NCBI RefSeq assembly: GCF_000718165.1
Contig: NZ_JOEY01000011.1
Location: 1-64,000 of the forward strand
DNA: 64,000 nt
From: Streptomyces fulvoviolaceus
Lineage (GTDB): Bacteria; Actinomycetota; Actinomycetes; Streptomycetales; Streptomycetaceae
Direction: 5' to 3'
The number at the start of each line of letters is the position of its first letter. Positions within the stretch are counted from its first letter, which is position 1. The notes below the pieces were generated by a model, which did not search any database, had not been told where the DNA came from, and worked only from the letters and a program-made list of their open reading frames with translations. This document shows, piece after piece, positions 59,322-64,000 of this stretch. The translations under genes and the position numbers were made by a program.

Positions 59322-60293
59322 TCACTTGCCGTGGTGCAGCAGCCAGCCCCGCCAGGCCGACTCGACCATCTCGCGCACCCCGCGCCGGGCACTCCAGCCG
59401 AGCGTCTCGGCGGCCCGGACGGCCGAGGCCACCGAGACCGGTGCGTCGCCGGGGCGCCGGGCCTCCACGAGGGGCGGTCGTCGGTCACCGCTCACCTCGC
59501 CGATGACCGTGATCAGCTCGCGCACGGAGACGCCTTCGCCGCGACCGATGTTGACCGTGAGGTCGCCCTGCAGGTCCCCTTCGGCCAGCCGTCGGGCCGC
59601 CGCCAGATGCGCCTCCGCGAGATCGGCGACGTGAATGTAGTCACGGATGCACGTGCCGTCCGGCGTCGGATAGTCGTCGCCGAAGATCCGCGGGGCCTCG
59701 TCACGGGTGAGCCGGTCGAAGACCATCGGAACTATGTTGAAGACGCCGGTGTCGGCCAGTTCGGGTGCGGCCGCGCCCGCCACGTTGAAGTAGCGCAGGC
59801 ACACGGTCGAGATGCCGTGCGCCCGGCCAGCCGCCCGCACCAGCCACTCCCCGGCGAGCTTCGTCTCGCCGTACGGGTTCACGGGCGCGCACGGAGTGTC
59901 CTCCGTGATCAGTGCCACATCCGGGTTGCCGTAGACGGCCGCCGACGAGGAGAAGAGGAAGCGCTTGACCCCGGCCTCGGCGACCGCCTCCAGGAGCGTG
60001 CCGAGACCGCCCAGGTTCTCCTGGTAGTACCGGGTCGGCTGCGCCACGGACTCGGCGACCTGTTTGCGCGCCGCCAGGTGCACCACACCCGTCACCGCGT
60101 GCTCGGCCAGCACCCGCTTCAGCAGGTCGCCGTCGAGCGACGAGCCCTGCACGAGCGGGACCTCGGCCGGCAGTCGCGCGGGGAAGCCGGCGGAGAGATC
60201 GTCCAGTACGAGGACCCGCTCTCCGGCGTCGGTCATGGCCCGCGCCACATGGGCCCCGATGTATCCGGCACCGCCGGTGATCAGCCATGTCAT
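59322..60293 (-). CDS. galE: UDP-glucose 4-epimerase
   Basis: 323 aa extended SDR. NAD-binding GGAGYIG (7-13), substrate segment SSSAAVYG (115-122) and catalytic Tyr141-x3-Lys145 in YGETK; RYFNVAGA and RDYIHVADLAEAH follow. It interconverts UDP-glucose and UDP-galactose (or the N-acetyl forms) for cell-wall polysaccharides. ATG at 60293. Divergent from the CDP-alcohol phosphatidyltransferase operon, with which it may share a cell-envelope role. Confidence 0.92.
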   Translation of the reverse strand: MTWLITGGAGYIGAHVARAMTDAGERVLVLDDLSAGFPARLPAEVPLVQGSSLDGDLLKRVLAEHAVTGVVHLAARKQVAESVAQPTRYYQENLGGLGTLLEAVAEAGVKRFLFSSSAAVYGNPDVALITEDTPCAPVNPYGETKLAGEWLVRAAGRAHGISTVCLRYFNVAGAAAPELADTGVFNIVPMVFDRLTRDEAPRIFGDDYPTPDGTCIRDYIHVADLAEAHLAAARRLAEGDLQGDLTVNIGRGEGVSVRELITVIGEVSGDRRPPLVEARRPGDAPVSVASAVRAAETLGWSARRGVREMVESAWRGWLLHHGK

Positions 60294-60581
60294 GGTCGCC
60301 CACCCTATGCCGACCCGACGGCGGCCGACCCCGATGTCCCGGATGCCCGGTCTGTGAGCGCGGTTTGTGGGCGAGGCCCGTGATCACCGATGATGATCGC
60401 GGCAAAGGCCGGGGGAGGCAGCGCTGATCGGCCCGTGAACGGGCGGTGAACGCAGCCTTCCTCGTATCCGATAGCCTCTGCCGACATGCCGCCCGCCTGG
60501 TGCAGCCCGACCACGCCAAGGGGCGCCCCCACCGTGAACACGACCGGCGCCCGCGCGTCGGCACCCAGGGAGTGAGTTCGG

Positions 60582-62366
60582 TTGTCGACCGCCATCCTCA
60601 CCGGTCAGCCGGTCCCCGGATCGTCGATCGAGGGTGATCTGCGGGCCCTCGGATACGACGTACGGATCGCCTCCGACGCCTCCGACACCGAGACGCTGCT
60701 CGCCCAGGTCCCCGGCGACCAGCGGGCCGCCGTGGTCGACGCCCGCTTCGTGGGCCACCTGCACGCCCTGCGCCTCGGGCTCACCGACCCCCGCTTCCCG
60801 CTCGCCGCGATCCCGGGCGCTGTGACGGCCCAGCCGGCCGGCCGCCAGGCCCTGACGCGGGCGATGGCCCGGGAGAGCTCGGCGGGCAATGGAACGACGC
60901 TCGTGGACAGCCTCGCGGACCGCATAGTCACCGCGCTCGACACCGACGGCGCCGACGTCCACCGCCCCGAGCTCGGCAGCCTGGTCGCCGCGGTCCCCGC
61001 CGACCCGCAGGCCCGCAACGAGGCACGGCAGGCCGTGGCGAACGTCGACGACGAGGCCGTACGCCTGAAGTCGGCCGTGAAGTCCCGCGACGGCTTCTTC
61101 ACCACCTTCTGCATCAGCCCGTACTCCCGCTACATCGCGCGCTGGTGCGCCCGCCGGGGCCTGACCCCGAACCAGGTCACCACCGTCTCCCTGCTCACCG
61201 CGCTGATCGCGGCGGGCTGCGCGGCCACCGGTACCCGGGTCGGCTTCATCGCGGCGGGCGTCCTGCTGATCGCGTCCTTCGTCCTGGACTGCGTCGACGG
61301 CCAGATCGCCCGCTACTCCCTGCAGTACTCCACGCTCGGCGCCTGGCTCGACGCCACCTTCGACCGGGCCAAGGAGTACGCCTACTACGCGGGCCTCGCG
61401 CTCGGAGCGGCCCGCGGCGGCGACGACGTATGGGCGCTGGCGCTCGGCGCGATGGTCCTGCAGACCTGCCGGCACGTCGTCGACTTCTCCTTCAACGAGG
61501 CGAACCACGACGCCACCGCCAACACCAGCCCCACCGCCGCCCTCTCCGGCAAGCTCGACAGCGTCGGCTGGACGGTGTGGGTGCGGCGCATGATCGTGCT
61601 GCCGATCGGCGAGCGCTGGGCGATGATCGCGGTGCTCACGGCGGTCACGACTCCGCGTATCACCTTCTACGTCCTTCTCGTCGGCTGTGCCTTCGCGGCG
61701 ACGTACACCACGGCGGGCCGGGTGCTCCGGTCGCTGACGCGCAAGGCGCAGCGCACGGACCGGGCGGCGCAGGCGCTGGCGGATCTCGCGGACAACGGGC
61801 CGCTGGCCTCGCTCGTGGCGCGTGCCACCCGCGCCCGCCTGGGCACCCCGTTGCTGGTGGCGGCGGCCGGGACCGCCGTCCTCGCCGTGTCCCTCTTCTC
61901 CGGGGCGGCCTGGGCGCCCGTCGCGGGTGCCGTCGTCTACACGGTCACCGCCGGTCAGGCGCTGTACCGCCCCCTCAAGGGCGCCCTCGACTGGCTCGTC
62001 CCCCCGCTCTTCCGCGTCGCCGAATACGGCACCGTCCTGGTCCTGGCGGCCCAAGCGGACGTGAACGGAGCCCTTCCTGCGGCTTTCGGGCTGGTGGCGG
62101 CCGTCGCCTACCATCACTACGACACGGTGTACCGCATCCGCGGCAACGCCGGAGCGCCCCCGGCCTGGCTGGTGCGCGCCATCGGGGGGCACGAAGGGCG
62201 GACGCTGCTCGTCACCGTCCTGGCCGCCGCGCTCACCGCTTCGCAGTTCAAGGTCGCGCTCACGGTTCTCGCCGTGGCCGTCGCCCTGGTGGTGCTCGTC
62301 GAGAGCATCCGCTTCTGGGTGTCCTCCGGGGCACCCGCCGTACACGATGAAGGAGAACCCGCATGA
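60582..62366 (+). CDS. CDP-alcohol phosphatidyltransferase with N-terminal DUF5941-type region
   Basis: 594 aa from the TTG at 60582 (GGGAG upstream). Residues 1-165 are a soluble alpha/beta region without a recognisable catalytic motif. The CDP-alcohol phosphatidyltransferase signature is exact: D236-x2-D239-G-x2-A-R244-x8-G253-x3-D257-x3-D261, followed by about six to eight membrane helices to residue 590. It would transfer a phosphoalcohol from a CDP donor to a lipid or polyol. The stop overlaps the next ATG (ATGA). The 288-bp upstream gap has GATAGCCT as a possible -10 and the palindrome GCCCGT-GA-ACGGGC at 60431-60444. Acceptor and product unknown. Confidence 0.85.
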   Translation: MSTAILTGQPVPGSSIEGDLRALGYDVRIASDASDTETLLAQVPGDQRAAVVDARFVGHLHALRLGLTDPRFPLAAIPGAVTAQPAGRQALTRAMARESSAGNGTTLVDSLADRIVTALDTDGADVHRPELGSLVAAVPADPQARNEARQAVANVDDEAVRLKSAVKSRDGFFTTFCISPYSRYIARWCARRGLTPNQVTTVSLLTALIAAGCAATGTRVGFIAAGVLLIASFVLDCVDGQIARYSLQYSTLGAWLDATFDRAKEYAYYAGLALGAARGGDDVWALALGAMVLQTCRHVVDFSFNEANHDATANTSPTAALSGKLDSVGWTVWVRRMIVLPIGERWAMIAVLTAVTTPRITFYVLLVGCAFAATYTTAGRVLRSLTRKAQRTDRAAQALADLADNGPLASLVARATRARLGTPLLVAAAGTAVLAVSLFSGAAWAPVAGAVVYTVTAGQALYRPLKGALDWLVPPLFRVAEYGTVLVLAAQADVNGALPAAFGLVAAVAYHHYDTVYRIRGNAGAPPAWLVRAIGGHEGRTLLVTVLAAALTASQFKVALTVLAVAVALVVLVESIRFWVSSGAPAVHDEGEPA

Positions 62367-63115
62367 TCGGCCTCGTGCTCGCGGCCGGCGCCGGACGGCG
62401 TCTGCGCCCCTACACCGACAGCCTGCCCAAGGCGCTGGTGCCGGTGGGGCCCGCGGGTATAGAGGGCGAACCCACGGTTCTCGACCTGACGCTCGGCAAC
62501 TTCGCCGAGATCGGCCTGACCGAGGTCGCGATCATCGTCGGCTACCGCAAGGAAGCCGTGTACGAGCGCAAGGCGGCGCTGGAGGCGAAGTACGGCCTCA
62601 AGCTCACCCTCATCGACAACGACAAGGCCGAGGAGTGGAACAACGCCTACTCCCTCTGGTGCGGCCGTGACGCCCTCAAGGACGGCGTGATCCTCGCCAA
62701 CGGCGACACCGTCCACCCGGTCTCCGTCGAGAAGACGCTCCTCGCCGCCCGCGGCGAGGGCAAGCGGATCATCCTCGCCCTCGACACCGTGAAGTCCCTC
62801 GCGGACGAGGAGATGAAGGTCGTCGTGGACCCCGCCAAGGGCGTCCGGAAGATCACCAAGCTGATGGACCCGGCCGAGGCCACCGGCGAGTACATCGGTG
62901 TCACCCTCATCGAGGGCGACGCCGCCCCCGAACTGGCCGACGCGCTCAAGACGGTGTGGGAGACCGACCCGCAGCAGTTCTACGAGCACGGCTACCAGGA
63001 GCTCGTGAACCGCGGCTTCCAGATCGATGTGGCGCCGATCGGCGACGTCAAGTGGGTCGAGATCGACAACCACGACGATCTCGCCAAGGGACGGGAGATC
63101 GCGTGCCAGTACTGA
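62363..63115 (+). CDS. NTP-transferase family protein (phosphocholine cytidylyltransferase-like)
   Basis: 250 aa. Nucleotidyltransferase A fold: LAAGAGRRLRPYTDSLPKAL (5-24, NTP-binding loop and the conserved Lys) and later ANGDTVHP, with the metal-binding Asp. C-terminal part ends VKWVEIDNHDDLAKG, as in CTP:phosphocholine or inositol-phosphate cytidylyltransferases. It would form CDP-activated alcohol for the preceding transferase. Overlaps its neighbours on both sides (4 bp upstream, 13 bp downstream), so strict co-translation is expected. Confidence 0.88.
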   Translation: MIGLVLAAGAGRRLRPYTDSLPKALVPVGPAGIEGEPTVLDLTLGNFAEIGLTEVAIIVGYRKEAVYERKAALEAKYGLKLTLIDNDKAEEWNNAYSLWCGRDALKDGVILANGDTVHPVSVEKTLLAARGEGKRIILALDTVKSLADEEMKVVVDPAKGVRKITKLMDPAEATGEYIGVTLIEGDAAPELADALKTVWETDPQQFYEHGYQELVNRGFQIDVAPIGDVKWVEIDNHDDLAKGREIACQY

Positions 63116-64000
63116 CCCGGCTGATCCCCTCCCCGCTCGTCGTCGACATCCGCTCGGGTGCCATCGACGACCTGGCCTGCGTGCTCGCCGACGAGCGGAT
63201 CTCGCACTCCGGCAAGCTCGCGATCGCCGTCAGCGGCGGCTCGGGTGCGAAGCTGCGCGAGCGGCTCGAACCGACTCTCCCCGGCGCCACCTGGTACGAG
63301 GTCGGGGGCGGCACCCTCGACGACGCCGTACAGCTGGCCGGTGACATAAAGGCCGGCCACTACGACGCGGTCGTGGGCCTCGGCGGCGGCAAGATCATCG
63401 ACTGCGCCAAGTTCGCCGCGGCACGGGTCGGCCTCCCGCTGGTCGCCGTACCGACGAACCTCGCGCACGACGGCCTGTGTTCGCCGGTCGCGACCCTCGA
63501 CAACGACGCGGGCCGCGGCTCCTACGGCGTGCCCAACCCGATCGCCGTCGTCATCGACCTGGACGTCATCCGTGAGGCCCCGGTGCGCTTCGTGCGCGCG
63601 GGCATCGGCGACGCGATCTCCAACATCTCCGCGATCGCGGACTGGGAACTCGCCAACCGCGTCAAGGGCGAGAAGATCGACGGCCTCGCCGCCGCGATCG
63701 CCCGGCAGGCGGGGGAGGCGGTGCTCCGGCACCCGGGCGGCATCGGGGACACCGACTTCCTCCAGGTGCTCGCCGAGGCGCTCGTCCTCAGCGGTATCGC
63801 CATGTCGGTGTCGGGTGACTCCCGACCCTCCTCCGGCGCCTGCCACGAGATCAACCACGCCTTCGACCTGCTCTTCCCCAAGCGCGCCGCCGCCCACGGA
63901 GAGCAGTGCGGACTGGGTGCGGCCTTCGCGATGTACCTGCGGGGCGCGCACGAGGAGTCGGCGTACATGGCCGAGGTGCTGCGCCGGCACGGGCTGCCGG
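63103..64000 (+). CDS. sn-glycerol-1-phosphate dehydrogenase-like protein, N-terminal 299 residues
   Basis: Starts at GTG 63103 (GGGAG upstream) inside the end of the cytidylyltransferase gene and runs off the right edge. It is of the AraM/EgsA type: nucleotide-binding GLGGGKIID (92-100), NLAHDG, metal ligands predicted at Asp170 (GIGDAI), His248 (SGACHEINHAFD) and His265 (AAHGEQCG). Such enzymes reduce dihydroxyacetone phosphate to glycerol-1-phosphate, the archaeal stereoisomer; a few bacterial members exist. In context it may supply the alcohol phosphate for a CDP-activated intermediate. Other iron-containing dehydrogenases of this fold are the main alternative. Confidence 0.8.
   Translation, partial: MPVLTRLIPSPLVVDIRSGAIDDLACVLADERISHSGKLAIAVSGGSGAKLRERLEPTLPGATWYEVGGGTLDDAVQLAGDIKAGHYDAVVGLGGGKIIDCAKFAAARVGLPLVAVPTNLAHDGLCSPVATLDNDAGRGSYGVPNPIAVVIDLDVIREAPVRFVRAGIGDAISNISAIADWELANRVKGEKIDGLAAAIARQAGEAVLRHPGGIGDTDFLQVLAEALVLSGIAMSVSGDSRPSSGACHEINHAFDLLFPKRAAAHGEQCGLGAAFAMYLRGAHEESAYMAEVLRRHGLP

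Follow-up and report, generated by a model that had tools for sequence, protein, structure and literature searches.

We analysed the first 64,000 bases (the window) of contig C11 (NZ_JOEY01000011.1) in the 11.58-Mb genome of Streptomyces fulvoviolaceus, and followed the contig past the window's end. Seven co-directional genes (C11 60582-67597) lie across this end and form what we call the operon. We lean, with modest confidence, towards the reading that the operon makes and exports a teichoic-acid-type envelope polymer that contains glycerol phosphate and whose donor is built on sn-glycerol-1-phosphate (G1P). From sequence we infer all substrates, the stereochemistry, the direction of transfer, the identity of the polymer and PhoP binding at this locus.

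In the proposed pathway, a dehydrogenase that resembles G1P dehydrogenase (G1PDH) would reduce dihydroxyacetone phosphate to G1P. The nucleotidyltransferase NTPT would then combine G1P with cytidine triphosphate (CTP) to give cytidine diphosphate (CDP)-glycerol of the opposite hand to the product of Bacillus TagD. The membrane CDP-alcohol phosphotransferase AP1, and perhaps a second one, AP2, in which the usual catalytic base is missing, would take glycerol-1-phosphate from CDP-glycerol and attach it to an acceptor, either lipid-linked or a glycan. A GT2 glycosyltransferase would add sugar, a TagGH-like ABC exporter would carry the product out, and PhoP would control the operon through a PHO box. 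The NTPT-dehydrogenase pair would be a portable CDP-glycerol supply that replaces glycerol-3-phosphate (G3P) and TagD in these actinobacteria. The same pair could also feed TagF-type transferases encoded elsewhere in the genome.

The operon begins with AP1 (60582-62366, + strand, TTG start, 594 amino acids). NTPT, which is LicC/PntC-like (62363-63115, +, 250 amino acids), overlaps AP1 by 4 bp, and the iron-type, G1PDH-like dehydrogenase, a relative of EgsA/AraM (63103-64164, +, GTG start, 353 amino acids), overlaps NTPT by 13 bp (63103-63115) and extends past the window's end at 64000. A preliminary description of the window had treated these genes as a three-gene unit. The coordinates confirm both overlaps, yet the unit turns out to be the first three of seven genes. 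Reading beyond 64000 for further pathway genes, as that description had advised, yields AP2 (C11 64142-64921, overlapping the dehydrogenase gene by 23 bp), GT2 (C11 64927-65799), a TagG-like permease (C11 65896-66825) and a TagH-like ATPase (C11 66818-67597), all on the + strand. The overlaps suggest that the seven genes are co-transcribed; the gap between GT2 and TagG is 96 bases.

The three-gene observation is not a chance arrangement, because all three proteins have Pfam matches above cut-off (AP1 PF01066 and PF19365; NTPT PF00483; dehydrogenase PF13685/PF00465) and the dehydrogenase is conserved across genomes. It occurs in 40/40 genomes of the genus, our own included and with none of the genus among the listed misses, and in 102/394 genomes of the class at E<=1e-20.

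Enzymes of the operon

The dehydrogenase appears to be G1PDH-like. We compared a profile from a 20-row alignment with solved structures. It scores 186-216 bits against the G1PDHs 4rgq, 4rfl and 5fb3 and 120 bits against 9h4x, while other glycerol dehydrogenases reach at most 77.5 bits. The top match is 3ce9 (220 bits), deposited as a glycerol dehydrogenase. Hence, as judged from these scores, the enzyme is nearer to G1PDH than to the other named iron-type dehydrogenases except 3ce9. Its Asp/His/His positions, which we take to be the metal site of the family, align with those of the Methanocaldococcus jannaschii enzyme. The motif HGEQ[CV] is present in 113 of 145 distinct homologues and HGELAG in 17.

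We propose that NTPT is a CTP:glycerol-1-phosphate cytidylyltransferase. Its profile, a 21-row alignment from several families, finds three solved relatives ahead of all others: LicC (72.7 bits), 4jd0 (65.2 bits) and PntC (61.4 bits), followed by nothing above 41.4 bits. The record of 4jd0 says only nucleotidyl transferase; we take it to be the inositol-1-phosphate cytidylyltransferase of Thermotoga maritima. Among 139 distinct NTPT homologues the signature loop of nucleotidyltransferases is intact in every one, and NN.YS[LM] is present in 138.

AP1 has the hallmarks of a CDP-alcohol phosphotransferase: a PF01066 match above cut-off and the motif D1xxD2GxxARx8GxxxD3xxxD4. The complete D..DG..AR.{8}G...D...D signature reads DCVDGQIARYSLQYSTLGAWLDATFD, and the intact DxxDGxxAR noticed in the preliminary description continues through the fourth Asp, which we take to be the catalytic base. 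In the best AP1 hits (n=141) this position is D in 105 and A in 1, and 35 have no motif. Of 77 named loci, 70 retain the TTG start, 6 have CTG and 1 has CCC (the position is extrapolated from the alignment).

The membrane part of AP1 (PF01066) is flanked by a cytidylyltransferase-like region at about residues 13-155 and by a C-terminal DUF5941 (393-594), a domain that gains a likely setting from the operon. The N-terminal region had been called unexplained. It now looks like a degenerate cytidylyltransferase-like domain that seems to have lost the N-terminal nucleotide-binding segment.

AP2 matches PF01066 above cut-off, yet in the window's genome its fourth signature Asp is Ala. The best AP2 hits in 135 loci have A (108), H (15) or D (11) at this position, or no motif (1); those printed among the 11 D proteins are AP1-type and 30-36% identical. 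For 124 distinct AP2 proteins above 130 bits the counts are A 106, H 18 and D 0. In this count the His form comes from the 14 non-Streptomyces loci and from 4 Streptomyces loci, and the remainder have Ala. A second AP2-like protein of the genome (C33:147188-147496, L008; 51% identity) also has Ala at this position.

Of the two exporter proteins, the ATPase finds TagH as its best model (182.8 bits, short of the NCBIfam equivalog cut-off of 320), and the permease is nearest to the Wzm/KpsM models, far below cut-off.

A two-gene module and its company

NTPT and the dehydrogenase form a module. For this comparison, fetched loci with the same first 600 bases of the match were counted once, leaving 134 distinct loci, mostly from Streptomyces, with ends extrapolated from alignments. 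NTPT directly precedes the dehydrogenase in 130 of them, and the 13-bp overlap is kept in 127. Two of the four exceptions end there and two (L158, L159) have no NTPT.

We compared the distribution of the module with those of TagD and TagF across one set of 394 genomes of the class. Dropping two genomes with a weak dehydrogenase match (G622, G701) leaves 100 module genomes and 294 others. We call TagD strong from at least 109 bits (30 genomes), a line of our own drawing at a score gap from 109.0 to 85.9, and TagF strong for PF04464 at E<=1e-60 (141 of the 188 genomes with any match). Strong TagD occurs in 0/100 module genomes vs 30/294 others (Fisher p 1.3e-4), and strong, full-length TagF in 91/100 vs 50/294 (p 1e-41), where the p-values ignore shared ancestry. 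When the 40 Streptomyces are left out, the counts are 0/60 vs 30/294 for strong TagD (p 0.004) and 53/60 vs 50/294 for strong TagF. Within these Streptomyces, 26 have a weak TagD match and 14 none at all; 12 of those 14 carry strong TagF. The pattern points to CDP-glycerol, probably made from sn-glycerol-1-phosphate, as the donor for teichoic-acid-type polymers.

The gene contexts vary. AP1, AP2 and GT2 accompany the pair in the loci examined from families f89 and f79, and L158 (f99) has the dehydrogenase, AP2 and GT2. Other gene sets surround the pair in f6, f7, f81, f86 and f106; in f6 another CDP-alcohol enzyme lies directly 3' of it. The AP1 protein of genome G712 is that of Thermomonospora umbrina, and G485 shares an identical dehydrogenase with Thermobifida fusca. 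In G485 (L169), matches to TagG (24% identity), TagH (40%) and two AP1-like pieces (33-36%) stand side by side and adjoin NTPT (66%), the dehydrogenase (48%), AP2 (51%) and GT2 (57%). G531 (L170) has the same arrangement, except that the AP1 match covers only the C-terminal part.

Further loci (L149, L152, L156, L159, L161 and L165-L168) were chosen from the hits and are not a random sample. In L152 the pair is found with a GT2-TagF fusion, two more PF04464 genes, a GDPD phosphodiesterase, UDP-galactopyranose mutase and TagGH. A second copy of the pair lies between rne and obg in a Streptomyces (L161:8752-10538), with TagF matches at about 3 kb (partial) and about 7 kb (full). Another Streptomyces has a dehydrogenase copy without NTPT between rne and obg, also before the ribosomal L21 gene (L159:9390-10448). 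TagF is about 6 kb from this copy, and 4.6 kb away in L156. CDP-alcohol enzymes occur with TagF in L166, L167 and L168 and with TagGH in L165. In L149 (2168-13610) the pair is near TagGH, a GlfT2-like galactofuranosyltransferase and a LicD-domain protein, a context that suggests glycerol phosphate on a galactofuranan. Such contexts near TagF, CDP-alcohol and TagGH genes look as expected of a shared donor supply.

PHO box and flanking genes

A predicted PHO box suggests that PhoP adjusts the operon to the phosphate supply. It lies between galE and AP1 at 60434-60451 on the - strand, 131-148 bases upstream of the AP1 start, and consists of two direct repeat units with an N4 spacer and an 11-nt period (GTTCACC-GCCC-GTTCACG). 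The GTTCACC motif and the 11-nt units are described in the available part of PMC4415409, the two direct repeats in that of PMC7244524.

We surveyed 81 loci (L009, L061-L140), of which 77, close relatives of one another, have a usable AP1 start. A pair with <=2 mismatches in 14 positions is present in 59/77 loci vs 38/4916 control windows of 300 bases from other parts of these loci. Another 12 Streptomyces loci, whose AP1 is as little as 68% identical, all have their best site on this strand at -110 to -160. The flank on the AP1 side (window 60452-60491, 40 bases) is as conserved as the box and the other flank is not. This segment has no conserved reading frame and is perhaps the promoter and transcript start.

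In excerpts of the literature, SCO6753 is a predicted PhoP target with a PHO box (PMC4173021) and sco6750 is isopentenyl diphosphate (IPP) isomerase (PMC6767563). Because of the latter, SCO6753 should belong to this operon; by gene count it would be AP1 or NTPT.

The galE-like epimerase gene (59322-60293, - strand) is divergent from AP1, as had been described. It is not a constant neighbour, since 14 of the 77 named loci have no galE match at this position. The PHO box is kept in 11/14 loci without galE and in 48/63 with it. On the other side, a 399-base gap after the TagH-like gene is followed by terpenoid-type genes (C11:67997-72540; L009:13997-18540). They are hopanoid-like, with two squalene/phytoene-synthase-family genes and a flavin amine-oxidoreductase-family gene; by eye, without a family search, one frame also resembles a polyprenyl synthase.

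Two other loci of the genome hold related genes. A PF04464 gene on contig C17, a GT2-TagF fusion, belongs to a second cluster, which also contains a galE-like gene and a further TagGH pair (L164:7732-17148). A weak TagD-like match on C14 adjoins another CDP-alcohol phosphotransferase (C14:121551-122529, L007), which makes this a separate CDP-alcohol locus.

Alternatives and known systems

Several findings, together with the limits attached above to the TagD line and the p-values, weigh against the proposed polymer pathway. The dehydrogenase scores 247-248 bits against the G1PDH equivalog NF002022 and misses its cut-off of 413. We therefore say that the enzyme works like a G1PDH, not that it is one. 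The LicC match spans only the first 106 of 243 NTPT profile positions, and the named inositol-1-phosphate cytidylyltransferases 2xme (32.0 bits) and 4mnd (29.1 bits) fall under several sugar enzymes. A catalytic role of AP2 with Ala or His in place of the fourth Asp is doubtful. The literature searched held no assay of any enzyme of the operon. Neither TagD nor TagB/F is among the seven genes, so that the operon is without TagF; the genome's only PF04464 match is at C17:139106, and its best TagD match (C14:121551-121919) is weak, with 60.9 bits vs a cut-off of 165.4.

The co-occurrence also has its exceptions. Only 4/394 genomes pass the curated TagD cut-off, and weak TagD-model matches (E<=0.001) are common (70/100 module genomes, 89/294 others). 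Strong TagF is found with neither strong TagD nor the module in 32 genomes, and 9/100 module genomes are without it. Family f7 is the one family that shows both types, with the module in only 3 of its genomes. Finally, the PHO box sits in a divergent intergenic region and is less well kept in distant relatives, where only 4/12 of the further Streptomyces loci reach <=2 mismatches.

The alternative that survives best, although we think it unlikely, keeps the CDP-glycerol donor made from G1P but attaches single glycerol-1-phosphate groups to a glycan as side chains instead of building a backbone. In its favour, the operon includes GT2 but encodes no TagF polymerase, the pair in L149 is found with GlfT2-like and LicD-like genes and TagGH, and enzymes of the CDP-alcohol phosphotransferase fold usually perform single transfers. 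Strong TagF in most module genomes and the pair inside the TagF cluster of L152 argue against it.

It is less probable still that the two enzymes of the pair use a different polyol phosphate (inositol-, ribitol- or erythritol-like) and yield another CDP-polyol. Both AP1 and AP2 lie close to the inositol enzymes of IPCT-DIPPS type, and some relatives have database names that begin 'Bifunctional IPC'. The missed G1PDH equivalog cut-off fits this idea as well. All scores against the IPCT-DIPPS model NF041135 miss its cut-off of 580 bits (AP1 57, AP2 54, NTPT 41 bits). Against it, the dehydrogenase profile is much nearer to G1PDH than to other named iron-type dehydrogenases except 3ce9, and a glycerol route would predict the exclusion of strong TagD.

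A route to phospholipids or to ether lipids of archaeal type, in which G1P or its CDP derivative enters membrane lipid heads, is very improbable. B. subtilis AraM supplies an ether lipid according to excerpts of PMC5059525 and PMC13400652, one source names relatives phosphatidylglycerophosphate synthase, and terpenoid genes lie 3' of the operon. PcrB, in contrast, is above cut-off in 0/21 genomes (one weak match, G693, 19 bits) with a positive B. subtilis control, and a TagGH-like exporter and GT2 sit within the operon. The preliminary description had proposed G1P synthesis, CTP activation and transfer to a membrane acceptor. We infer the same chain of steps, but an exported polymer is a likelier product than a lipid head group because the cluster adds a second transferase, GT2 and a TagGH-like exporter.

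Least probable of all, and very much so, is that NTPT uses a sugar-1-phosphate in an ordinary capsule-like glycan operon with an incidental dehydrogenase: most of Pfam NTP_transferase consists of sugar nucleotidyltransferases, the best NCBIfam models are AglF, Arch_glmU and RmlA (all far below cut-off) and galE is alongside, but the profile is nearest to LicC, 4jd0 and PntC, the NTPT-dehydrogenase overlap is conserved, and two CDP-alcohol enzymes would be left without a donor from the operon. Sugar-1-phosphate use, named earlier as a refutation, is weakened by these top matches, with the reservation that named inositol-1-phosphate enzymes score below some sugar enzymes.

The polymer pathway would bear on an existing question. 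Excerpts of PMC3196553 and PMC3089915 report sequenced actinobacteria without a clear LtaS orthologue and raise their synthesis of polyglycerolphosphate lipoteichoic acid as an open question; a later paper names an LtaS homologue in Bifidobacterium bifidum (PMC12286996, in part). PMC3196553, as far as available, describes a polyglycerolphosphate lipoteichoic acid in S. hygroscopicus whose structure closely resembles that of the species' wall teichoic acid, cites Thermobifida fusca as a lipoteichoic acid producer, and supports the idea that lipoteichoic acid uses the wall-teichoic-acid machinery (tagB/tagF orthologues). A CDP-dependent glycerol-1-phosphate (Gro1P) route would fit the likeness in S. 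hygroscopicus, the T. fusca polymer and the lack of a clear LtaS. In S. roseosporus, which has a second TagGH pair, deletion of tagG slows growth and delays sporulation (PMC10269677, excerpt). The literature searched gave no stereochemical measurement on Streptomyces polymers.

The operon is a specific candidate for the lipoteichoic acid route of actinobacteria without clear LtaS, and may be the missing route to teichoic acids in these bacteria. More tentatively, many actinobacteria could make mirror-image CDP-glycerol with the two-gene module and build Gro1P wall and lipoteichoic acids in the cytoplasm, using CDP-alcohol phosphotransferases and TagF-type enzymes. If true, this would supply the missing LtaS-independent route in Streptomyces and Thermobifida and explain the nearly identical wall and lipid polymers of S. 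hygroscopicus. Teichoic acids of these bacteria would then be mirror images of the Bacillus wall polymer. They should resist GlpQ, in B. subtilis a phosphodiesterase specific for glycerol-3-phosphate units (Gro3P; PMC7086022, excerpt), and lectins, phages and antibodies should recognise them differently. G1P would gain a further use besides archaeal-type lipids and phosphatidylglycerol-derived polymers.

The proposed pathway shares several features with the TagD-TagB/TagF pathway of Bacillus: a cytoplasmic CDP-glycerol donor (as proposed here), a TagGH-like exporter, a PHO box and TagF-family genes in the genome. It differs in that the donor would come from G1PDH-like and LicC-like enzymes instead of G3P and TagD, and the transferases of the operon are CDP-alcohol phosphotransferases instead of TagB/F. 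Bacillus wall teichoic acid consists of Gro3P from CDP-glycerol (PMC7086022, in the part available), and the Gro1P predicted here is its mirror image.

With the LtaS pathway of Firmicutes the product would share its Gro1P stereochemistry. According to the same excerpt, the lipoteichoic acid of B. subtilis is Gro1P derived from phosphatidylglycerol and such polymers are built outside the cell, whereas the synthesis predicted here is cytoplasmic and CDP-dependent. A bacterial polymer based on G1P, which had been regarded as unusual, therefore has a precedent; the unusual part would be cytoplasmic, CDP-activated Gro1P.

AP1 resembles IPCT-DIPPS and AF2299 of Archaeoglobus in joining a nucleotidyltransferase-like part to a CDP-alcohol phosphotransferase membrane domain. 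Unlike them, it has an extra DUF5941 membrane domain, and its operon has a separate NTPT and export genes. The dehydrogenase is related to EgsA/AraM in its catalytic region, with aligned Asp/His/His positions, but its gene is coupled to a nucleotidyltransferase and not to PcrB/GGGP synthase.

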